The translations under genes and the position numbers were made by a program. Positions 9,609 through 63,948 of a DNA stretch of 64,000 bases are shown one piece after another (within the stretch, counting starts at the first letter, position 1; each line of letters begins with the position of its first letter). Location: assembly GCA_020847375.1 (NCBI GenBank), contig JADLCB010000003.1, positions 186,001-250,000 on the forward strand. The letters run 5' to 3'. A model generated the notes under the pieces. That model saw only the letters and a program-made list of their open reading frames with translations, did no database searches and was not told the DNA's origin. The DNA is from Phycisphaerales bacterium (lineage in GTDB: Bacteria; Planctomycetota; Phycisphaerae; Tepidisphaerales; Tepidisphaeraceae).

Positions 9609-10436
9609 ATGAAGGCAGACATCGGTACCGACAGCCATCGTCTGGCCAGCCAGGTGTATCGCAATCAATGGTTGAAATTCGGTTTCTCGCTAGTGGAACT
9701 GCTGGTCGTGATCGGGATTATCGCGATCCTGATTTCGCTGCTCCTGCCGTCAATCCAAGGGGCGCGCCGACAGGCCAACCAGGTTAAATGCGCCGCCCAA
9801 CTGAAACAGATCGGCGATTACATCAATATGTACGCCAACAGCTATCGGGGATGGATTTTTCCCGTGGGTCAACTTGATCCCAACAGCCCCAATGCGGAAA
9901 ACCAGTATGAATCGCTGGGGGCGAACAAGCTGCCGTGGCAGCGCTGGCCGGTGGTGGTGTTCAGCGACATCAACTGGCCCGAGCCGCCAGCCTCGCCCCA
10001 GCCGCTGAATTATTACAACGATGATCCTGTCGGACAGGCGCTGGGACGGAAATGGAGTCCGCCGATCATGCTGTGCCCGGAAGATAATGATCCGCCGTCG
10101 GGCACGTCCTACATCGTCAATAAATATCTGGTTAAGTCCGCCAGTGAAGTGATGAAGATTTCCAGTCGTCCGATGGGCGGCAAAGCATCATCGGAAATTG
10201 TTGTGATGGGGGAAAAAAAGACTCAGACAATGGATTATTACATGGAGGGTTTTGGCCGGGCTGCCGATGGTTCGATCGATCAAAGCACCACAACGGAATT
10301 TTTCAAAGTGGTGGAACTGTCACGTCATGGCGTGAAGCTGGGCAGCAACTATCTTTACCTTGACTGGCACGTCGATCTGCGGCCACCGGCCAATGATGAT
10401 GCGATTGACCCGTGGTATGTCCCTTCGGGCAACTGA
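9609..10436 (+). CDS. Prepilin-type cleavage/methylation protein (pseudopilin-like)
   Basis: This 275-residue protein has a class III prepilin signal after a 25-residue leader: GFSLVELLVVIGIIAILISLLLP, where cleavage after Gly and N-methylation would occur. It continues as the long helix into GARRQANQVKCAAQLKQIG. The C-terminus RHGVKLGSNYLYLDWHVD corresponds to the H-X9-DG motif typical of planctomycete pseudopilins, but the DG is replaced by DW. GGAGG lies 8-12 bases before the ATG at 9609, which fixes this start rather than the frame opening at 9468. No pilus assembly genes are near. The role is unknown, probably an envelope or secretion component. Confidence 0.8.
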   Translation: MKADIGTDSHRLASQVYRNQWLKFGFSLVELLVVIGIIAILISLLLPSIQGARRQANQVKCAAQLKQIGDYINMYANSYRGWIFPVGQLDPNSPNAENQYESLGANKLPWQRWPVVVFSDINWPEPPASPQPLNYYNDDPVGQALGRKWSPPIMLCPEDNDPPSGTSYIVNKYLVKSASEVMKISSRPMGGKASSEIVVMGEKKTQTMDYYMEGFGRAADGSIDQSTTTEFFKVVELSRHGVKLGSNYLYLDWHVDLRPPANDDAIDPWYVPSGN

Positions 10437-54339: not shown

Positions 54340-54588
54340 TCAGGACGGAATGACCACGGAGCTGGGCGGCTGGGGTGGCGGCCCGGTTGGGCGCAACCGG
54401 CGCACGTTAAAGACCAACCAGACCATCGCGATCATAAAGACCACGACCACCACGACCATGGTCAGGAGTACGCGCCGGCCGGATACCGTGGGAAAATCGC
54501 GCGCCCGTGGCGCCCCGGCACGGTTTGAAAGATCGAGTTCATTCATCATCAATGGATTATAGGGCTGAGGGCGAATCGGGAACACCAT
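54340..54588 (-). CDS. Small single-pass membrane protein
   Basis: This 82-residue protein has one hydrophobic helix (VLLTMVVVVVVFMIAMVWLVF, residues about 40-60), flanked by a basic stretch and a Pro-rich end. Its ATG overlaps the stop of the preceding reductase gene as TGATG, so translation is probably coupled. Another start is ATG 54546 (second of the MM pair). No family is recognised. It may modulate its neighbours at the membrane. Confidence 0.6.
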   Translation of the reverse strand: MVFPIRPQPYNPLMMNELDLSNRAGAPRARDFPTVSGRRVLLTMVVVVVVFMIAMVWLVFNVRRLRPTGPPPQPPSSVVIPS

Positions 54589-55604
54589 CAGCGCAGGTTG
54601 GAGCTATGGCCGGGGAAAACATTGGCTTTGGGGTTGAGGTAATGGGCGGCGAAATTGACCGCGATCACGGCTTCACCAAATCCCGTGGCGATCAGTTTCA
54701 GTTTGGCTGAATGGGCGGTAATGTCACCGGCGGCGAAAATGCCCGGGCGGCTGGTCTGCATCTGGCTGTCCACCTGAATCTGCCCCCCCTGCATCTCCAG
54801 CCCCCAGTTGGCCAGCGGCCCCAGCGAGTTGATGAAACCAATGTTCACCAGCACCGCATCGACCTCCAGCGTCTGCTCGCTTTTACTACGATTGTCATAA
54901 ATAACAGCGCGTTCAACCCGTGAATTGCCTTCGATGGCGCGCAACTCATGCCACAAATGGATGTTGGTGCTGCCGGCCTTGAGCTGATCAACGCTGGCGG
55001 GGTGGGCGCGAAAACGGTCATTGCGATGGATCAGCCATAGTTTTTGCGTGATCGGTGCCAGAGTGTTGGACCAGTCCACCGCGCTATCCCCCCCACCGAC
55101 GACCAGAACGCGCTGATCGCGAAAAACCGTGGTGTCCGACACGAAGTAGGCCAGCCCCTTGTCTTCAAAGTAATCCGCGCCGGGGATGGAAACTTTGCGC
55201 GGCTGAAAAGCCCCGACACCGGCCGCAATCAGAACCGTGCGCGCCCGGTGCGTACTTTTGGAGGTGCTGACCAGAAAATGACCGGCCGATTCATCACGAT
55301 CCAGACTTTGCACCTGTTCATCGAGACAAACCTGCGGTTTATAGTACATCGCCTGCTCGACAAGCTGTTCGACCAGGTCTTTGGCCAGGATTTTAGGGAA
55401 CCCAGCCACATCGAAAATGTACTTTTCCGGATAAAGTGTACTGAGCTGACCACCGAGCAACGCGAGCGAGTCAACGATCCGCACACTCATGCTGCGCAAG
55501 CCGGCGTAGAAGGCTGCAAATAAGCCGGTTGGCCCCCCACCGATAATCAACAGGTCAACTACGGTGTCATTGTCGATCGACGAATTGTCAGTGTCTGAAT
55601 CCAT
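54588..55604 (-). CDS. Ferredoxin-NADP(+) reductase, thioredoxin-reductase-like type
   Basis: This flavoenzyme of about 338 residues is of the YumC/TrxR-like FNR type. It has an FAD motif LIIGGGPTGLFAAFYAGL, then LLGGQLSTLYPEKYIFDVAGFP (typical of this family), an NADPH motif VLVVGGGDSAVDWSNTL and a terminal FAD contact GIFAAGDITAH. It lacks the CxxC redox pair of real thioredoxin reductases. It transfers electrons between NADPH and ferredoxin. ATG 55604 is used; a GTG two codons earlier is possible. The stop overlaps the next gene's start. Confidence 0.92.
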   Translation of the reverse strand: MDSDTDNSSIDNDTVVDLLIIGGGPTGLFAAFYAGLRSMSVRIVDSLALLGGQLSTLYPEKYIFDVAGFPKILAKDLVEQLVEQAMYYKPQVCLDEQVQSLDRDESAGHFLVSTSKSTHRARTVLIAAGVGAFQPRKVSIPGADYFEDKGLAYFVSDTTVFRDQRVLVVGGGDSAVDWSNTLAPITQKLWLIHRNDRFRAHPASVDQLKAGSTNIHLWHELRAIEGNSRVERAVIYDNRSKSEQTLEVDAVLVNIGFINSLGPLANWGLEMQGGQIQVDSQMQTSRPGIFAAGDITAHSAKLKLIATGFGEAVIAVNFAAHYLNPKANVFPGHSSNLR

Positions 55605-55677
55605 GGTCACTTTGATTTTTGGCAGGCAATTCCGTCTTTTTAAGTTGTAAATAGTGTTTCGTCAATCAATTACGATA

Positions 55678-55737
55678 GTCTGCCAGGTGTCTGACACGCA
55701 TTAAAGCATGTCTGACATGCGTCAGTCGCTGGCAGAC
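55678..55737. repeat. Nested palindromes with two TGTCTGACA sites after the HTH gene
   Basis: Outer arms GTCTGCCAG (55678-55686) and CTGGCAGAC (55729-55737) enclose two perfect palindromes: GTGTCTGACAC (55687-55697) and GCATGTCTGACATGC (55706-55720). The centres of the inner pair are 21 bases apart, two helical turns. The right outer arm lies within the last codons of the HTH gene. Likely a protein-binding cluster. Confidence 0.6.
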
Positions 55738-56420
55738 AGGCTGCTGAGCAGCCGCCCTACCAGGCTGGACTGATTTTGTGTTGGTTGAGTGGTTGGGATA
55801 TTTTCCACAGCGACGCGAACGGGTTCTTTTCGAGCTTTGAGTTCACCTTCTGCCCGGGCTGCTGCCAGACGTGCATCATCGGCTTGCACCCGTAAGTTTT
55901 CAATTTCCGCCTTTTTACTGGCAGCATCACTTTGGATGAGGTTCAGCTCGCGTTGTACGCCGATCACTTCACTCTTGGCTTGGGTCAGTTTCTGGGTTGA
56001 CCAGACACCGATACCAAATAAAGCGATCAAACTCACGCCTACCATACCCCAGGCCGTGCGGGCCATGATCCGCGCCCGACGGGCTTCAGCGGCGGCAGTC
56101 ATGACCGACTGCTGGTATGCCAGTATGGCCAGATCTGTCCGACGCAGACGATCTTCATGCAATTGCAACATGGTATTGTGCATGTCAGGATGAATACTGG
56201 CAGACGAGTGGCTGACAGTCTGGCTGCTGCCTTCAAAAACGTCGGACTCAGCCGATGAAGGTTCGGTCACCACGGGATCAGAAATTTCGACAAAAACTTC
56301 GCGCCGACCGTTTTCCAAGCGCGACTGCACCTGGCCACTGGCCAAGCGACGATGCAAGGTACGAACGGAAATCCCCAGTGTTAATGCAGCTTCTTCTACG
56401 GTCTGCCATGCCTGTGCCAT
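55722..56420 (-). CDS. Membrane-anchored helix-turn-helix protein with coiled coil
   Basis: This is a 232-residue protein. Residues 1-47 are an excisionase/MerR-like HTH (VEEAALTLGISVRTLHRRLASG). A Ser-rich linker follows, then one membrane helix at about 123-141 (AWGMVGVSLIALFGIGVW), a heptad-like coiled coil at about 145-197, and a short tail. AAGGAGG lies 5 bases before the ATG. A TGTCAGACA palindrome sits in the spacer of its candidate promoter and two more lie just after its stop, suggesting self-regulation. Its position directly downstream of parB suggests a link between chromosome-site binding and the membrane. No family name is recognised. Confidence 0.75.
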   Translation of the reverse strand: MAQAWQTVEEAALTLGISVRTLHRRLASGQVQSRLENGRREVFVEISDPVVTEPSSAESDVFEGSSQTVSHSSASIHPDMHNTMLQLHEDRLRRTDLAILAYQQSVMTAAAEARRARIMARTAWGMVGVSLIALFGIGVWSTQKLTQAKSEVIGVQRELNLIQSDAASKKAEIENLRVQADDARLAAARAEGELKARKEPVRVAVENIPTTQPTQNQSSLVGRLLSSLSASD

Positions 56421-56491
56421 GTCTGCCTCCTTGCAGTTGGTCAGTTAGATAAGTTGTCGGCCAGATCCTCTGACCGTCTTGAGTCCGATAA

Positions 56492-56520
56492 AATGTAATG
56501 ACAAGATGTCAGACATTCAA
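56492..56520 (-). promoter_or_regulatory. Promoter of the membrane-HTH gene with palindrome in spacer
   Basis: On the minus strand TTGAAT (56520-56515) and TACATT (56497-56492) are separated by 17 bases. The palindrome ATGTCAGACAT (56506-56516) covers the -35 edge of the spacer, a classic repressor position. It starts 72 bases before the ATG. Confidence 0.5.
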
Positions 56521-56604
56521 GCGCAAATCATTTTTTAATAAAAATTCCATGGCCTGACCTATTTTGATCATCCCGACGACAAGTTAGGTAAATGTTTGAT
56601 GCAA

Positions 56605-56620
56605 TGTTCCACGTGGAACA
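56605..56620. other. parS: parS site downstream of parB
   Basis: This is the perfect 16-base palindrome TGTTCCACGTGGAACA, matching the ParB-binding parS consensus. It lies 32 bases after the parB stop codon. Confidence 0.9.
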
Positions 56621-56651
56621 TGCGCGCGGTTCATTTTGATCCTTTAGAGGA

Positions 56652-57599
56652 TTAATCTTCCAGACGAACACCCAACTGCGTTAGAAGCGTGTCGAACTGT
56701 TCAAGATTACCATAATGGATCACCACGCGGCCGCGCGAATTGCTCCCGCGGTTCACCCGAACCTGTACCCGCATACCCAGTTGACTGGCGATATTCTTCT
56801 CTAAATCCTTCAAATGAGCTGATTCCGCCGGTGGTTGACGGTGGGGGGCGGGTTGAGAATTAAGCAAACGCTCCAGATTACGAACGCTTAATTCCTGGCT
56901 GACCGCCAGTTTCGCCAGTCGTTCCTGTTCAACTGAATCGGCCACTCCGACTAAAACCTTGGCATGACCGACACTCAGTCTGCCATCACGGACAAGCTGA
57001 CGGACAGCCTCAGTTAAGTCAAGTAATCGCAAAAAGTTACTGACGGTGCTGCGATCTTCTCCCAAGCGGCCTGCCAGTTCATTTTGACTTAAGCCCAGCT
57101 TGGTAATTAAAGTTGAGTAGGCATTGGCACGGTCAATGGGGTTCAAATCTTCACGTTGAATATTTTCGATCAATGCCATCTGGGCTTGGGCAATTGCATC
57201 CACTTCCTGCCGGACCAGGGCGGGGATTGTTGCCATACCCGCCAGTCGGGCCGCGCGCAGACGCCGTTCACCGGCGATCAGCTCATACCCGTCAGCCGAC
57301 TGACGGACAACGACTGGCTGAATCAATCCGCTGACCTTCATACTGTCAGCCAACTCCTGCAGAGCAGTTTCATTGAATGACCGACGCGGTTGATGCGGAT
57401 TGGGTTGAATCTGATCAACTCCCACTTCAATGGCGTAAAGACGTTGGGTTTGACTGTCAGCCTGACTGTCGGCGGCAGACGTCTGACCGACATGGCCATC
57501 TGACACGTCCGACGTGTCAGCCGCATCCGTCAGCGAAGTGCTGGAGATTAAACTTGATAACCCGCGACCAAGACGAGGGCGATTAGGTGAACGATCCAT
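56652..57599 (-). CDS. parB: Chromosome-partitioning protein ParB
   Basis: This is a 315-residue ParB/Spo0J. The N-terminal RLGRGLSSLI is the ParA-contacting patch. The CTP-binding core has PNPHQPRRSFN, GERRLRAARLAG and LIENIQREDLNPID, and an HTH follows (GLSQNELAGRLGEDRSTVSNFLRLL). The C-terminal dimer domain ends GVRLED. GGAGG lies 7 bases before the ATG at 57599; a longer frame to 57806 would run through parS and is rejected. parS sites flank the gene. No parA is in the window. The linker region (about residues 20-50) is Asp/Ser-rich, and its DNA contains a 19-base palindrome. Confidence 0.95.
   Translation of the reverse strand: MDRSPNRPRLGRGLSSLISSTSLTDAADTSDVSDGHVGQTSAADSQADSQTQRLYAIEVGVDQIQPNPHQPRRSFNETALQELADSMKVSGLIQPVVVRQSADGYELIAGERRLRAARLAGMATIPALVRQEVDAIAQAQMALIENIQREDLNPIDRANAYSTLITKLGLSQNELAGRLGEDRSTVSNFLRLLDLTEAVRQLVRDGRLSVGHAKVLVGVADSVEQERLAKLAVSQELSVRNLERLLNSQPAPHRQPPAESAHLKDLEKNIASQLGMRVQVRVNRGSNSRGRVVIHYGNLEQFDTLLTQLGVRLED
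57501..57519. repeat. 19-base palindrome inside the parB linker
   Basis: TGACACGTCCGACGTGTCA is a perfect palindrome in the codons for the Asp/Ser-rich ParB linker. It belongs to a run rich in GTC and GAC. The encoded linker is not conserved, so a DNA-level role is possible. Confidence 0.45.
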
Positions 57600-57989
57600 A
57601 AAATACCTCCGCAGTCTTATCTGCCCACTGCAATGTTCCACGTGGAACATTGCACCAGACGAGCTAATTATCCAAAAAAAGCGTTCTGACTCAAATTTGT
57701 AGGTATCAATCGGACTAGGTTCAGCGCTGCTCGAGGCAGCCAGGCATCGGCAAAATAGCCGCGAGGCGAGAGGGCGGTGGTGGGGGGCCAGCAAATATGA
57801 AATCAATCGCTAACGTGAATTAGCCCAACCCATACGCGCGGTCAATTGGACCTCCCTTTGAGGAAGACACGCGAGCTGGTTATAAGTTAGGGAAATGTAT
57901 GGGTCTAGTTTAGAATGGATAACTGGTTATAATTCTGCACCTTGCAGATCGGCACGCACGGTGCTGCCGGTCTTCATCTGGAAAGACTC
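57600..57989. promoter_or_regulatory. Divergent region between parB and nuoD
   Basis: This 390-base gene-free stretch contains one parS site and a direct repeat CTGGTTATAA at 57876-57885 and 57923-57932. A TATAAT (57928-57933) lies 57 bases before the nuoD ATG. No good -35 is seen. The rest shows nothing clear. Confidence 0.45.
57634..57649. other. parS: parS site upstream of parB
   Basis: This is a second copy of TGTTCCACGTGGAACA, 35 bases before the parB ATG; the palindrome extends four further bases on each side. Confidence 0.92.
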
Positions 57990-59264
57990 ATGGCTTATAC
58001 ACTTACACCCGCCGAGCCGGAACAATTTGACGCGCAATCAACCCATGGCGATTCGGATAATCTCTGGACGCTGAACTTCGGCCCGCAGCACCCGGCGACC
58101 CACACCACCTTGCGCATTGTCCTGGAGCTCGATGGCGAGCGCATCGTCAAGTGCCTGCCGCACATTGGCTACCTGCACTCGGGTTTTGAGAAGCTGGGTG
58201 AAAATCTTAATTACAATCAATATGTCACCATTGTTGACCGGATGGATTATTCCGCGCCGATTTATAATGAACTGGCGTGGCACGGGGCGGCTGAAAAATT
58301 GATGGGCATCGAGCTGACGCCGCGCTGCAAGGTGTTGCGCACCATCGCCGGTGAACTGGGGCGCATCCAGTCGCACTTGCTGTGCATCGCAGCAGCCGGA
58401 CTCGACCTGGGCGCACTGACCGCGTTTCTCTACGGCTTTAACGAACGCGAAGTGATTTACGACATTGTTGAATACATGAGCGGCCAGCGCTTTCACACCA
58501 GTTGGACGCGCGTCGGCGGTTTGAACATGGATCTGCCCGATGAGGAAGTCTTTGTCCGCATGGTCAAGCGTTTCATCAACGAGCAGTTGCCGCGCGGCAT
58601 TGAGGACATTGAAAAACTGCTGAATCGCAATCGTATTTTCGTGGACCGCACCAAGGGTATCGGCATCATCAGCCGCGAAGATGCCATCGCCTGGTCGCTA
58701 TCAGGGCCGATGGCGCGGGCATCGGGCGTGGCGCGCGATATTCGCAAGGATGAACCGTATCTCTGTTTTGCGGACAACTGGGACAACCAGGGTTCGCCGG
58801 CGGTTAATTTCAAAGTGCCGATCATGACCACCGGCGATGTGTATGCCCGTTACCTCGTGCGCCTGGAGGAGGTTCGTCAGAGCATCCATATTATTCGTCA
58901 GCTCATCGACAACATCCCCGGCGGGGCGGTCAACGTCAGCCCCGAAGGCAAGGCTGTGCTGCCGCCCAAGTCGCAGGTCTATGGTTCCATCGAAGGGCTG
59001 ATTCAGCACTTTGAAATCATCATGACCAACCGTGGTTTCATTCCACCGCGCGGCGAAGTTTATAACTGTATCGAAACCGCCAACGGTGAGCTGGGTTATT
59101 ATATTGTCAGCGACGGCGGCAATGTTCCCTGGCGGGCGCGCACGCGGCCGTGCATTTATATCAACTATCAGGTCTTCCCTAAATTAGTCGAAGGCCATAT
59201 GGTTTCAGACGTGGTGGCCATTCTGGGCAGTGTCAACGTGATTGCGGCGGAGTTGGATCGTTAA
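57990..59264 (+). CDS. nuoD: NADH-quinone oxidoreductase subunit D
   Basis: This 424-residue 49-kDa subunit of complex I helps form the quinone-binding cavity in the peripheral arm. Typical segments are NFGPQHPATHTTLRIVLELDGE, PHIGYLHSGFEKLGENLNY, DRMDYSAPIYNELAW, GELGRIQSHLL, DEPYLCFADNWDNQ-like, and the C-terminal GEVYNCIETANGELGYYIVSD. The start ATG 57990 has GGAAAG upstream; a longer frame from 57942 lacks support. nuoE follows after 148 bases, but no other nuo genes are here, so the operon is split. Confidence 0.96.
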   Translation: MAYTLTPAEPEQFDAQSTHGDSDNLWTLNFGPQHPATHTTLRIVLELDGERIVKCLPHIGYLHSGFEKLGENLNYNQYVTIVDRMDYSAPIYNELAWHGAAEKLMGIELTPRCKVLRTIAGELGRIQSHLLCIAAAGLDLGALTAFLYGFNEREVIYDIVEYMSGQRFHTSWTRVGGLNMDLPDEEVFVRMVKRFINEQLPRGIEDIEKLLNRNRIFVDRTKGIGIISREDAIAWSLSGPMARASGVARDIRKDEPYLCFADNWDNQGSPAVNFKVPIMTTGDVYARYLVRLEEVRQSIHIIRQLIDNIPGGAVNVSPEGKAVLPPKSQVYGSIEGLIQHFEIIMTNRGFIPPRGEVYNCIETANGELGYYIVSDGGNVPWRARTRPCIYINYQVFPKLVEGHMVSDVVAILGSVNVIAAELDR

Positions 59265-59412
59265 CAGAATTGATCGTCGCCCGGCGGTGGCCAACGTGAC
59301 GCGAATACCGACAGGTCAATTGAAATTGCCCCAGCCGATGGCAGGGCGGCATTGAAATTTGAAATCAATTTTCGCTTCGTAAAAATTTTTCCCTTTCACC
59401 AGCGACAGACTT

Positions 59413-59994
59413 ATGGCTTGGATTGCTGAAAATCGTCGTGACCCGCAGGTCAAAACTTCGGATACCCCTTACCTCACCGATGCGCTCAAAGCCGTTTTGC
59501 GCGACCGGTATTTCCCGCGCTATCCAACCAAGCGGGCTGTGCTCCTGCCGGCGCTGCATCTGATTCAGCACACGTACGACTGGATTCCCACCCAGGCGCT
59601 GCAGGAAGTGGCGGAGTTTCTGGAGATCGCGCCGGCTGAGGCGCTGGATACCGCGACGTTTTACGAGGAATATTGGCTTAAACCCAAGGGTAAGTATCTG
59701 ATTGGTGTCTGTCGTTCGCTGGCCTGCGAGTTGTGCCAGTCTGCCAAGCTGACCGACACTGTCCGCCGCAAGTTGGGAATTGAGGTCGGGCAGACCACGA
59801 CTGACGGCCGCTTCACGCTGATCGAAATGGAATGTCTCGGTTCGTGCGGTTCAGCACCGGTGGCTTTGACCAACGAAGTGCTTCAGGAAAATCTCACCCC
59901 CGAAAAGCTCGAAAAGTTGATCGATTCATTGCCCGCCGACCCGCACGACTTCAAAGACCCGGGCATCACCTGGCCGGAAGATGACAAGCACTGA
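59413..59994 (+). CDS. nuoE: NADH-quinone oxidoreductase subunit E
   Basis: This is a 193-residue thioredoxin-like 2Fe-2S subunit of complex I. The four cluster cysteines are visible as CRSLAC (C-x4-C) and CLGSC (C-x3-C). The N-terminal helical part contains LPALHLIQHTYDWIPTQALQ and the EALDTATFYEEYW motif. It accepts electrons next to NuoF. The start is ATG 59413; no clear ribosome site is seen. It follows nuoD and precedes a small ORF, with no nuoF or nuoG next to it. Confidence 0.95.
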   Translation: MAWIAENRRDPQVKTSDTPYLTDALKAVLRDRYFPRYPTKRAVLLPALHLIQHTYDWIPTQALQEVAEFLEIAPAEALDTATFYEEYWLKPKGKYLIGVCRSLACELCQSAKLTDTVRRKLGIEVGQTTTDGRFTLIEMECLGSCGSAPVALTNEVLQENLTPEKLEKLIDSLPADPHDFKDPGITWPEDDKH

Positions 59995-60012
59995 CTGGCC
60001 GATCAGTAGTCG

Positions 60013-60276
60013 ATGACCAAACGGGATGATGCATCATCCAGCTTCGCCCGCTGGCTTGGCAGACAAGTCGGACACATCCGTTGCGCCATCCGCCAACACG
60101 TCGGCGAACCAGCCCAAACCATCTACCGCCACCAGACGGTTCAGCAACATGCTGCCCCGCACGATCCTGATTTGATTCTGCGCCGAACCATCACCGATGA
60201 AGTGCTTTGCCGGTCAAAGCCGCCATCGGCGACAAATTCGTGTCATGACGGCCAAAAGACTCGGTCGGCAGGGTAG
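60013..60276 (+). CDS. Small uncharacterised ORF after nuoE
   Basis: This 87-residue ORF starts 18 bases after nuoE. Its sequence ARWLGRQVGHIRCAIR followed by PDLILRRTITDEVL looks structured. I recall similar short proteins beside nuo genes in related bacteria, but this is memory only. The tail (CRSKPPSATNSC onward) looks less ordered. The ribosome site is weak. The rest of the gap to 60365 holds nothing clear. Confidence 0.45.
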   Translation: MTKRDDASSSFARWLGRQVGHIRCAIRQHVGEPAQTIYRHQTVQQHAAPHDPDLILRRTITDEVLCRSKPPSATNSCHDGQKTRSAG

Positions 60277-60365
60277 TCTCCCCGTGTATTGTTCCGCGCC
60301 ATCCGTCAGCACAACATCAACAACGGCGTTGATTTGATATTCGTGCCCCAGCACACGAGGGCAAA

Positions 60366-61670
60366 CTACTCATGTCGCAACGCTTCGATGGGGTTCATGC
60401 GCGCCGCCAGAATCGCAGGATAAAGCCCGAAGACAATTCCGATCATGGCGCTGATGATGAACGAAAGCAGGACGCTCCACATCGCGATGCTGGTGGGGTA
60501 CTCATCCGTGCTGAACGCGCGCACCACGTACGGCAGCACCTTGGCAAAGACAACACCCAGACCCACACCAATCAAACCACCCGCCAGTGAAATCACCGTG
60601 GTCTCGATCAGAAACTGCAGCGTAATGTGGCGCTGCTTGGCGCCCAACGCCCGACGGATACCGATTTCGCGCGTGCGCTCGGTCACACTGGCCAGCATGA
60701 TGTTCATGATTCCGATTCCGCCCACCAACAGCGAAAGACCAGCAATGAAACCCATCACAAAATTAAATATCCGCTGCGTGCGCTCGGCTGAACGCAGAAT
60801 CGAGATCGGGGCTTTGATCTCGTAATCCAGAATCGGGTGCATCTCGGCGATGCGACTTTGCACATTGGCCGCTACATGCTCCACCTTGTCCATGCTGCTG
60901 GCTTGCAACCAGATTTCGCTCACCTCGATCACCTTGCGTTCCATTGATCCGCTCTGGCGGCGAACAATCGTGTCGCTGAAAATCTGCCGCGCCACCGACA
61001 ACGGAAAATAAATGTCCTTGTCCAGATCGCGGTTGATCATCGCAGCCCCTTCGCCGCGCAGCCCGCTGGGATAGAGCACGCCAATCACCTCCAGAATCAC
61101 CAGCCCCGTTGAGGGCGCACCGACTTCAATCGTGCGTCCCAGCGGATCGTCGTAGGGGAAAAGTTGCGCTGCCACGGCTGAACCGATGACGCAGACCGGT
61201 GCCGCGCGGTCATAGTCAACCTGGGTGAATTGCCGCCCCCGCGCCAGTTCCAGGTTGATCACTTCAAATGCCTGCGGTGTCGTACCGATCGCCTCGGCAT
61301 TGGCGCGGACATCCTTGCGAACCACTTTTTGTTCCGTCAGGCGCAGCGGCACGATGCGCTGTACATCGGGAACCAGCGCTTCCAGTCGGGCCAGATCGGT
61401 TCGCGTCAATCCATAACGCAGTTCGCGTGTCGTGGCCTGCGAAGTGTCCTGACTTTCCGGCGGGCGGGCTGACCGAACCAGAATGTTCGTTGCGCCCAGT
61501 TCCTCCAACTGCTGCAGCGCCGCTTTTTTACTGCCTTCGCCAATGGCGACCATCGTGATCACCGCAGCCACGCCGATGATGATCCCCAGCGCCGTCAGCA
61601 GCGAACGCATTTTATGACGCCGCAGATTCCGCAGCCCCAGCGCGAATGTTTCCAGTAAAAAAATAAACAT
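60366..61670 (-). CDS. MacB/FtsX-type ABC permease
   Basis: This is a 434-residue protein. An N-terminal helix follows RNLRRHKMRSLLTALGIIIGVAAVITMVAIG, then comes a large periplasmic MacB-like core domain (about residues 45-290), then three helices (FVMGFIAGLSLLVGGIGIMNIM onward, ending PAILAARMNPIEALRHE). ERTREIGIRRALGAKQ is the typical coupling segment. Such mechanotransmitters work with a separate ATPase and often a periplasmic adaptor. Neither gene is within the window, although a partner may lie elsewhere. It is transcribed toward nuoE. Confidence 0.93.
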   Translation of the reverse strand: MFIFLLETFALGLRNLRRHKMRSLLTALGIIIGVAAVITMVAIGEGSKKAALQQLEELGATNILVRSARPPESQDTSQATTRELRYGLTRTDLARLEALVPDVQRIVPLRLTEQKVVRKDVRANAEAIGTTPQAFEVINLELARGRQFTQVDYDRAAPVCVIGSAVAAQLFPYDDPLGRTIEVGAPSTGLVILEVIGVLYPSGLRGEGAAMINRDLDKDIYFPLSVARQIFSDTIVRRQSGSMERKVIEVSEIWLQASSMDKVEHVAANVQSRIAEMHPILDYEIKAPISILRSAERTQRIFNFVMGFIAGLSLLVGGIGIMNIMLASVTERTREIGIRRALGAKQRHITLQFLIETTVISLAGGLIGVGLGVVFAKVLPYVVRAFSTDEYPTSIAMWSVLLSFIISAMIGIVFGLYPAILAARMNPIEALRHE

Positions 61671-61719
61671 CAGCTCGTGCTATTGTAGGTCAATACTTTT
61701 CGCATCGTCGAAACAAAAA

Positions 61720-63948
61720 TCAACTGCCACCGGCGAGCTGATATTCGCGGCGTGAGTATGTGTATAAATCCGCCCAGCTCCAGTAAAAGCGTACATTATA
61801 AATGGTCTGACCCGCGTACGCCCATCGGCCGCCCAAGGCCTCAGCCAGCGGGTCGGCAGCGCTGCGCGCCGATGTTTCATCAGGATATTGTTGCCAAACA
61901 ATGATACGCTGAGCCTGCGGCTGTTTTTTCAGTGCAGCCTTGACCGCTGCCGGCGAAGCATCTTCCCGCAGTTTCTCCTGCTCCCACGGCCTCCATCGTC
62001 CAAAGCGTTGTACCGATACGGGCTGATCACTTTGATGGGCAAAGTAGTACCGACCGACCCAATCCCAGACCATGCCTCCCCCCGGAGCCGCACCAAGATA
62101 ATTAACAGCCATCGTTTTATCGGCTGAATGGGTGCGTAGCGGTGGGGTGAAGGTGAGTGTCATCGGATCGGATCTGTCTGCCAGAATGTCTGACACAACC
62201 CGGTCAACCGGCGGTTCATTACCAATGAAAATTCGCCCGTACGCCTGACCAAGATTCATCAGCAAAACCAGCCCGATCGCCCCCCAGCGCAGCGGGCGGG
62301 TGGGAATCCGCACCAGCAGGGCACTGAGCGCCAGCACCACCGCTGGCCAGATAAACGCCAGATACCGCGGCATCCAGACCGATCCATCCATCGGTTTGAC
62401 AGACACAAAGATGATGTAGCACGCGCCCCACAATGCTGCACCGATCAACGCGACCAACGCGAATTTGCGCACGCGCTCTCGTGAATTGTCTCCGCAAAAA
62501 ACCCAGAGCAGGGCCACTGTCAGCATGAGCGCAGCCAGGTAAATACCATGGCCCAGATTCGCCTGTTGAGGCGTTTGCGGGTCGTACAAAGGCAGGAATC
62601 CTGATTCATCGACAGCGAGAATTATCGTGAGGATCAAGACCGAAAAAAGCGCAATTCCCGCCAGCAGTCGGGGAATAATTCGTCCCAGCAAACCAAGGGC
62701 GGCGATAAGAACCATCCCGCCAACCAGCAGAAAAGCGCGCGATGCCAGAAGGGCGCCAATCACTGTCATGCCACTGTCAGACACGTTGTCTGACACCCGC
62801 CATGGGCTGACCAACCAGCCTCCCAGCCGGCTTAACCACGCTATCGGGCTGACCACCTCCTCGCGCGGGAACGACAGGCAGTAAACCGCGTACAACGGTA
62901 CGACAATCCACAACCCGAGCCAAAGTACTTTGCGCCACCAAGGCTCCTGTGGGGGGTCGTCGAATCGATCTCCGCGTAATTTTTTCGACCAGGGTAATGC
63001 GCCCAGCAGGCACAACCCCAGCACCAACCCGAACCCTGCTGTCGCCGCCGTGACACGCGACGGTGTCATCTGTCGGACATTGCCTTCAGGGATGAAATCC
63101 CACGCCAGCAGATAAGCTGACAACGAATCAACCGTCTGTTCAATCGCACTGTGCTGCTTGTTGCGCCGCGTGACCCACTCAATGCCGGTGTAGCTCCATC
63201 CTTTTTCCTCAATTTTTTGGCCGAACGGGTTGAAAAATGCGTAATATCCTGCTGGCCCGGCGAAAATAATGATCAAGCCCAGCACAAATAAAAGACCCTG
63301 TCGCCAGTGTGGCCGGCGCTGCGTTAAAAGATAGATTGGCTGAAGCGCAATCACACCCAGCCCGCTGATATGCAGCCCCAATGTCGCCAGCCCGCTGGCA
63401 ATCCATCCCAACCACGCCAGGCTGCTGCGCGTGCGCATCCACCAGAAAAAGCAGGCCATGTTCACCGTCAGCGCCAGGAAAAAAGGCATGTACATCTTGG
63501 CGTCGCGGCTATAGGAAAAGATGTACGCGCTGCAGGCGGTGAACGCTGCGCTCAGCAGGGCGGCGCGCCGGTTTAATAACTGACGGGCCAGAAAATAGAT
63601 CGCCGGCGTCATCAGTGTTCCGCTGATCGCTGCCACCAGGCGCAGCCAGAAGGGGGTTAAACGCTGCTGCCCGGTTTTGATCGCCTGCTGCGCCACAAAC
63701 CCGCTGATGTCTCCTTGAATCAGCTTGATAAAAGCATCCGGATTGCCCACCGCCCAGATCGCCTGATAGTTCAGCGGCATGAAACGAGTCCGCTTCATCT
63801 CCTTCAGCAGATCATCGTAAGATCCCATCACCCGGACGTAGGTCGATGCTTCATCGCCCCAGATGGTCGGTCGATCCAACCACGCGAAATGTAAAACCCC
63901 GCCGCCGATACACAATAGAATCAGGATAACCCAGTGCCACCGCCCCAA
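61720..63948 (-). CDS. Polytopic glycosyltransferase-like (GT39/ArnT-type) membrane protein
   Basis: This protein has at least 742 residues and about ten or more hydrophobic helices. The first loop contains WLDRPTIWGDEASTYVRVMG, with the acidic pair typical of GT-C transferases (GT39/ArnT/PMT type). It would use lipid-linked sugars at the outer face of the inner membrane. A soluble C-terminal domain follows the helices. The frame is open from a TTG at 63948 through the right edge (in frame to 64000), so the true start may lie outside the window. The gene contains three TGTC(A/T)GACA palindromes. Substrate unknown. Confidence 0.75.
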   Translation of the reverse strand: MGRWHWVILILLCIGGGVLHFAWLDRPTIWGDEASTYVRVMGSYDDLLKEMKRTRFMPLNYQAIWAVGNPDAFIKLIQGDISGFVAQQAIKTGQQRLTPFWLRLVAAISGTLMTPAIYFLARQLLNRRAALLSAAFTACSAYIFSYSRDAKMYMPFFLALTVNMACFFWWMRTRSSLAWLGWIASGLATLGLHISGLGVIALQPIYLLTQRRPHWRQGLLFVLGLIIIFAGPAGYYAFFNPFGQKIEEKGWSYTGIEWVTRRNKQHSAIEQTVDSLSAYLLAWDFIPEGNVRQMTPSRVTAATAGFGLVLGLCLLGALPWSKKLRGDRFDDPPQEPWWRKVLWLGLWIVVPLYAVYCLSFPREEVVSPIAWLSRLGGWLVSPWRVSDNVSDSGMTVIGALLASRAFLLVGGMVLIAALGLLGRIIPRLLAGIALFSVLILTIILAVDESGFLPLYDPQTPQQANLGHGIYLAALMLTVALLWVFCGDNSRERVRKFALVALIGAALWGACYIIFVSVKPMDGSVWMPRYLAFIWPAVVLALSALLVRIPTRPLRWGAIGLVLLMNLGQAYGRIFIGNEPPVDRVVSDILADRSDPMTLTFTPPLRTHSADKTMAVNYLGAAPGGGMVWDWVGRYYFAHQSDQPVSVQRFGRWRPWEQEKLREDASPAAVKAALKKQPQAQRIIVWQQYPDETSARSAADPLAEALGGRWAYAGQTIYNVRFYWSWADLYTYSRREYQLAGGS
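62176..62195. repeat. Composite repeat GTCTGCCAG-N2-TGTCTGACA
   Basis: GTCTGCCAG (62176-62184) is followed two bases later by TGTCTGACA (62187-62195). The same two words occur in the same order at 55678-55696. Here they lie inside the glycosyltransferase-like gene. Confidence 0.55.
62775..62795. repeat. Paired palindromes TGTCAGACA-CGT-TGTCTGACA
   Basis: Two complementary 9-base copies lie 3 bases apart and form a 21-base inverted repeat inside the glycosyltransferase-like gene. Confidence 0.6.

Follow-up and report, generated by a model that had tools for sequence, protein, structure and literature searches.

A local cluster of TGTC-N-GACA palindromes beside parB in a planctomycete family, and its candidate membrane-bound partner

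Palindromes around parB and two parS sites

Six copies of the palindrome TGTCWGACA lie within 7.1 kb of the 64-kb window (the whole stretch of DNA that was analysed), beside parB and two perfect parS sites; the other genes of this region are a ferredoxin-NADP reductase-like gene, hth, nuoD/nuoE, an ABC permease gene and a glycosyltransferase-39-like gene (Table 1). All six copies are where the first-pass annotation had placed them and none is found in the rest of the window, and the over-representation that it claimed is borne out, 0.39 copies being expected in the window and none of 100 dinucleotide shuffles of it reaching six. With any base at the centre (TGTCnGACA) the window has ten sites, the S-centre variants starting at 10028, 17277, 55133 and 63071; the first of these had been placed at 10029, the other three correctly.

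Table 1. Coordinates in the window of the genes, parS sites and palindromes of the parB region
Feature	Coordinates	Strand	Remarks
Ferredoxin-NADP reductase-like gene (Pyr_redox_2)	54588..55610	-	downstream of hth; syntenic in relatives
TGTCCGACA, S centre	55133..55141		within reductase gene; may be background
Weak phased site AGTCTGCCA	55677..55685		11 bp before 55688
TGTCTGACA	55688..55696		between hth and reductase-like gene
TGTCTGACA	55709..55717		21 bp from 55688 site; directly past hth stop codon
hth, gene of proposed binding protein	55722..56420	-	ORF, 232 aa; orthologues; profile matches; AlphaFold model; hydropathy
Weak phased site TGGCAGACA	55730..55738		21 bp after 55709; within hth 3' end
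TGTCAGACA	56507..56515		parB-hth intergenic; 87 bp before hth start
parS TGTTCCACGTGGAACA	56605..56620		perfect parS
parB	56652..57602	-	ParB_N, HTH_ParB and ParB_C domains
parS TGTTCCACGTGGAACA	57634..57649		perfect parS
TGTCTGACA	62187..62195		within glycosyltransferase-39-like gene; weak site TGTCTGCCA 12 bp before
TGTCAGACA	62775..62783		within glycosyltransferase-39-like gene
TGTCTGACA	62787..62795		within glycosyltransferase-39-like gene; 12 bp from 62775 site
TGTCGGACA, S centre	63071..63079		within glycosyltransferase-like gene; may be background

Across the whole genome (3.02 Mb in 31 contigs) TGTCWGACA occurs 19 times, against 14 for a reversed control pattern. The frequency is thus about that of background, yet the spread is not even: six of the 19 are packed into 0.24% of the genome, a stretch for which the genome rate predicts about 0.045. 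With a genome-wide count so close to background the palindrome forms one local cluster, concentrated rather than abundant. A highly iterated palindrome of the HIP1 kind, which the first-pass annotation had entertained and which the palindromic form and local over-representation of the word might suggest, has for this reason a negligible chance of being correct. If up to one mismatch is allowed, the 8-kb stretch of the 501-kb contig with most sites is the parB cluster itself, with 22, and the runner-up has 11. This second stretch (contig C3, about 81.5-89.4 kb; L003 1454-9402), one of whose 11 sites is exact, may be a smaller array of its own or have arisen by chance. The part of parB that encodes the ParB linker region (57440-57550) is crowded with half-sites resembling GTCTGAC/GTCNGAC, with GTCNGAC at 57481 and 57507.

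Chance, codon usage or a dispersed repeat might be thought to have produced the cluster, some copies being in coding sequence and the local density of GTC/GAC words being raised; we hold this to be very improbable in view of the shuffling result, of the presence of the same palindrome in four other genomes only together with hth, and of a spacing of 11/22/33 bp that codons do not explain. A longer dispersed repeat around the sites was rejected: the flanks carry almost no information and have nothing in common past the 9 bp, and a repeat search gave short imperfect families only.

The palindrome had been described as lying near parS, which is true of the two parS beside parB. The genome has eight perfect parS on seven contigs, and four of the six others were checked and found to have no cluster in their regions, so that the TGTCnGACA cluster is not a general parS partner. 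Nor is the palindrome itself a parS or ParB site, a candidate that we rejected: it is unrelated to TGTTCCACGTGGAACA, and the cluster is absent near parB in genomes lacking hth.

The parB region is likely to be origin-proximal. GC skew on its contig has a broad trough at about 170-290 kb, with parB inside it at 242 kb, and on the contig of the relative G007 the cumulative GC-skew minimum lies 1.5 kb from parS; however, skew follows gene direction too, and dnaA (C6:12025) is on another contig, 3 kb from another parS (C6:8963) and far from parB, so that origin proximity is no more than likely. No DnaA-box cluster was found near the parB locus, and in the complete genome G013 the skew is too weak to place an origin. 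Within the parB-nuo region of G007 (C39 10-30 kb; L066 4000-24000) the skew switches from about -0.4 to +0.3 in some 6 kb. parA is not beside parB, and in none of the eight genomes searched do ParA-like genes (PF13614) lie close to parB: in G013, which is one contig, the ParA-like gene is >1 Mb distant, and elsewhere such genes are on other contigs.

Occurrence of hth and the palindrome among relatives

hth is known so far from one family of Phycisphaerae only. At 1e-12 it is matched in 11 of the 397 genomes of the class; strong orthologues, with 35-49% identity, are present in five other genomes of the same family (G007, G023, G019, G010 and G016) and divergent homologues in G022 (~31% identical) and G013, the latter (L072 9008-10051, - strand) a protein of 347 aa whose gene adjoins parB and whose recognition helix reads RTVNRHI. 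The homologue in G003 (L097 1447-2229, - strand) comprises the transmembrane and coiled-coil part, seemingly without the wHTH. The named records among the orthologues come from MAGs assigned to Phycisphaerales, Phycisphaerae and Humisphaera sp. The gene directly follows parB in G007, G023 and G019 and is 9 kb from it in G010; in G014 and G006 the reductase gene follows parB with no hth between them. The ParB phylogeny is too poorly resolved to give an exact count of how often hth was independently gained or lost.

The palindrome recurs in relatives, clustered at the parB loci of genomes with hth: seven TGTCnGACA sites in G007, five in G023 (a sister species of G007, the two counting once), eight in G019 and four in G010; ten parB loci without hth have two in 158 kb altogether. 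An unbiased scan, which avoids a preselected motif by scoring per locus the 3,328 palindromes made of all 4-base half-sites with gaps of 0-12, ranks TGTCnGACA first in the genome of the window (p 1.7e-9), in G007 (4e-8), in G023 (2e-5) and in G019 (1.3e-10), and fifth in G010; it is missing from the scan's lists for loci without hth. Wider counts follow the same distribution. Seven of the eight sites of a 146-kb stretch of G007 fall within 9 kb; in G019 the parB contig has seven of the ten W-centre sites genome-wide (among the matches listed, 50 of 58 sites); of the 19 in G010 the parB contig, 51.5 kb long, has four; and in genomes without hth such sites are scattered, with none on the parB contig. 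The parB locus of G003 has no TGTCnGACA; that of G013 has no cluster despite its divergent homologue, and no single-step half-site variant is enriched there; and G016, whose hth has TIARRI and whose contigs are just 5 and 3 kb, likewise shows neither the motif nor an enriched single-step variant.

A different motif is found where the recognition helix differs. This helix reads PRTIERRIK in G022 and (S/T/V)RTLHRR(I/L) in the others (SVRTLHRRL in the genome of the window), and six TGCCnGGCA crowd into 1.8 kb of the G022 locus, 0.42 being expected in 12 kb; the whole 4.2-Mb genome has 176, and a 77-kb sample of it one. The change amounts to one base per half-site (TGTC to TGCC) together with a single recognition-helix residue, number 23, that is likely to contact the DNA (His to Glu). 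A single case, found post hoc with 13 half-site variants tested (the original and its single-step changes), it suggests a natural specificity switch; if hth reads the sites, the G022 domain would prefer TGCCNGGCA over TGTCNGACA.

The hint given at first pass, that the HTH protein encoded at 55722-56420 is the binder, is thus strongly supported: the cluster tracks the gene across relatives and stays with it even in G010, where hth does not adjoin parB. On the sequence evidence TGTCnGACA is very probably the recognition site of the hth protein. That a different protein of the locus, or a nucleoid protein, ParB for example, binds the sites instead would suit a cluster that surrounds parB and parS, but genomes with parB/parS and without hth have no cluster and in G022 the motif shifts together with the hth recognition helix; we regard this as improbable.

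Where the sites lie is less constant. Between G007 and G023 they are retained in three of seven and three of five cases, against a background of 0.32, which is not clearly better in a comparison of no statistical power. The same intergenic position between parB and hth holds sites in the genome of the window, G007, G023 and G019, and G019 has a pair 22 bp apart (L068 3001/3023) at the place equivalent to the pair at 55688/55709. The sites in the parB-hth and hth-reductase intergenic regions, being at homologous positions, may be operators. Sites in coding sequence are in different genes from one genome to another, and at differing places within the reductase gene; since genes and positions shift in this way, density rather than position seems to be under selection.

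The hth protein and the helical spacing of its putative sites

According to the AlphaFold model, hth has a wHTH at residues 1-46, a low-confidence linker, a long helix at 78-205 and a C-terminal helix at 218-229. Hydropathy predicts a transmembrane stretch at ~122-140 inside the long helix, preceded by basic residues and followed by a predicted coiled coil; in the seven members tested KD19 hydropathy is 1.5-1.95, with 3-5 basic residues predicted before the stretch and 1-3 after it. HTH_17 matches all six strong members weakly (best E 6e-4; below the Pfam cut-off for member 1, at 19.6 against 27 bits), as does the TIGR01764 excisionase profile, in all six below threshold. The top Foldseek matches of the wHTH include Xis (4j2n, TMt 0.60-0.62) and BldC (6ama, TMt up to 0.60), these two with rmsd ~2 A over ~40 residues, as well as RdfS and RacA-DNA (5i44, matching only the wHTH domain, E 0.59); E-values are weak, at best 0.09 and 0.09-0.22 for the Xis/BldC-type matches, probably because the domain is short. 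The predicted fold of the N-terminus fits the HTH_17/excisionase-type wHTH superfamily, and the Pfam matches listed up to E 1 include no OmpR-type (Trans_reg_C) domain. hth can thus be modelled as an N-terminal wHTH of Xis/BldC/RacA type with a predicted transmembrane helix and a predicted long coiled coil.

The same-helix-face spacing remarked on at first pass for the pair at 55688 and 55709 proves to be a broader helical phasing. Secondary sites (at most two mismatches) tend to fall 11-12, 21-22 and 33 bp from exact sites, with 32 such pairs against 17.8 expected among 27 exact sites, G023 being left out. The Rayleigh p for a period of 11 is 6e-7; nine control palindromes that yielded enough pairs gave 0.057 at best. 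Proteins with a wHTH of the BldC, RdfS and phage Xis type bind DNA cooperatively, and in BldC filaments successive protomers are one DNA turn apart (PMC11963761), close to the 11-bp phasing seen here. These proteins provide the best fold matches of the hth wHTH; unlike hth they are small, without transmembrane helix or coiled coil, and recognize direct repeats or show weak preference rather than binding a 9-bp palindrome.

A possible anchor for the parB/parS region

Regulators of the ToxR/CadC type have an N-terminal wHTH of OmpR type in the cytoplasm, a single transmembrane helix and a C-terminal part outside, in the periplasm. The predicted domain order of hth is the same, and its predicted topology, with basic residues before the transmembrane stretch and a coiled coil after it, fits their layout. 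hth could accordingly be a membrane-bound one-component regulator of this kind, with TGTCNGACA sites as operators that serve chiefly hth itself and the reductase gene, the remaining sites being auxiliaries or relics. Plain autoregulation would fit the intergenic sites that precede hth and the reductase gene, which are in homologous positions in the genome of the window and in G019; G007 and G023 have related sites. Coding sequence, however, holds about half of the sites, at distances from hth of up to 6-8 kb and in a different set of genes from genome to genome; W-centre sites in G010 are 15-35 kb away; no second regulon is seen, genome-wide counts being at background; and the hth wHTH is HTH_17/Xis-like, not of OmpR type. 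We consider this reading possible, though on the doubtful side. Regulator and anchor might both be true together, and of the functions proposed at first pass both the operator family and the chromosome-organising site remain viable.

The best explanation we can offer, and one that we regard as equally liable to prove right or wrong, is that hth is a local DNA-membrane anchor for parB/parS acting through the TGTCNGACA array. The hth wHTH would bind TGTCNGACA as its recognition site; strong sites and helically phased weak sites would make up a compact array of ~8-10 kb around parB/parS, wider in G010; binding of hth to this array would be cooperative, neighbouring wHTH domains being spaced by one helical turn as in BldC; and the transmembrane helix and coiled coil would tether the parB/parS region to the membrane. 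Bound at the intergenic sites, hth would probably act in addition as a regulator of its own gene and of the reductase gene. It is from sequence-based observations, namely the cluster, its co-occurrence with hth, the phasing and the change of motif with recognition helix, that we infer binding, membrane insertion, anchoring and any role in segregation.

RacA of Bacillus subtilis has an N-terminal HTH and links DNA to membrane through ram sites that are dense near the origin and found also across the rest of the chromosome, reaching the pole through DivIVA (PMC6593407). It has in common with hth the N-terminal HTH, with a structural match of the wHTH to 5i44, and does what is proposed for hth in linking DNA to membrane; the palindromes ascribed to hth are concentrated at parB. 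It differs in that hth carries its own predicted transmembrane helix and in that the hth cluster spans ~10 kb, with a motif distinct from ram, which is a GC-rich inverted repeat. RocS of Streptococcus pneumoniae, a segregation protein, has an N-terminal DNA-binding domain, a coiled coil and a C-terminal amphipathic membrane-binding helix (PMC11500499). For hth a wHTH, a coiled coil and a C-terminal helix (218-229) are predicted, but its predicted transmembrane stretch is in mid-protein and RocS has the amphipathic helix instead. By analogy hth may work in outline like RacA/ram or RocS; we claim membership of neither family.

A literature search, with most subscription journals outside its coverage, gave no paper joining ParB, a planctomycete and an HTH/transmembrane protein, and occurrences of the word TGTCTGACA were mainly in unrelated mouse and human papers. 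That the locus represents an undescribed single-protein centromere-to-membrane anchor of one planctomycete family, with a phased TGTC-N-GACA array and a specificity that co-evolves from TGTC to TGCC, we put forward tentatively, at somewhat less than an even chance.

Many Planctomycetes divide without FtsZ, and to our knowledge the placement and separation of their chromosomes are largely unstudied. The locus offers a concrete pair of protein and DNA site beside ParB, with a putative natural specificity switch built in. If a single polypeptide does anchor DNA directly to the membrane, the arrangement would be simpler than that of RacA and DivIVA and could be put to use in placing DNA within cells. 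Clustered at parB only where hth is also present, the palindrome suggests a new means of holding one region of the chromosome at the cell membrane.
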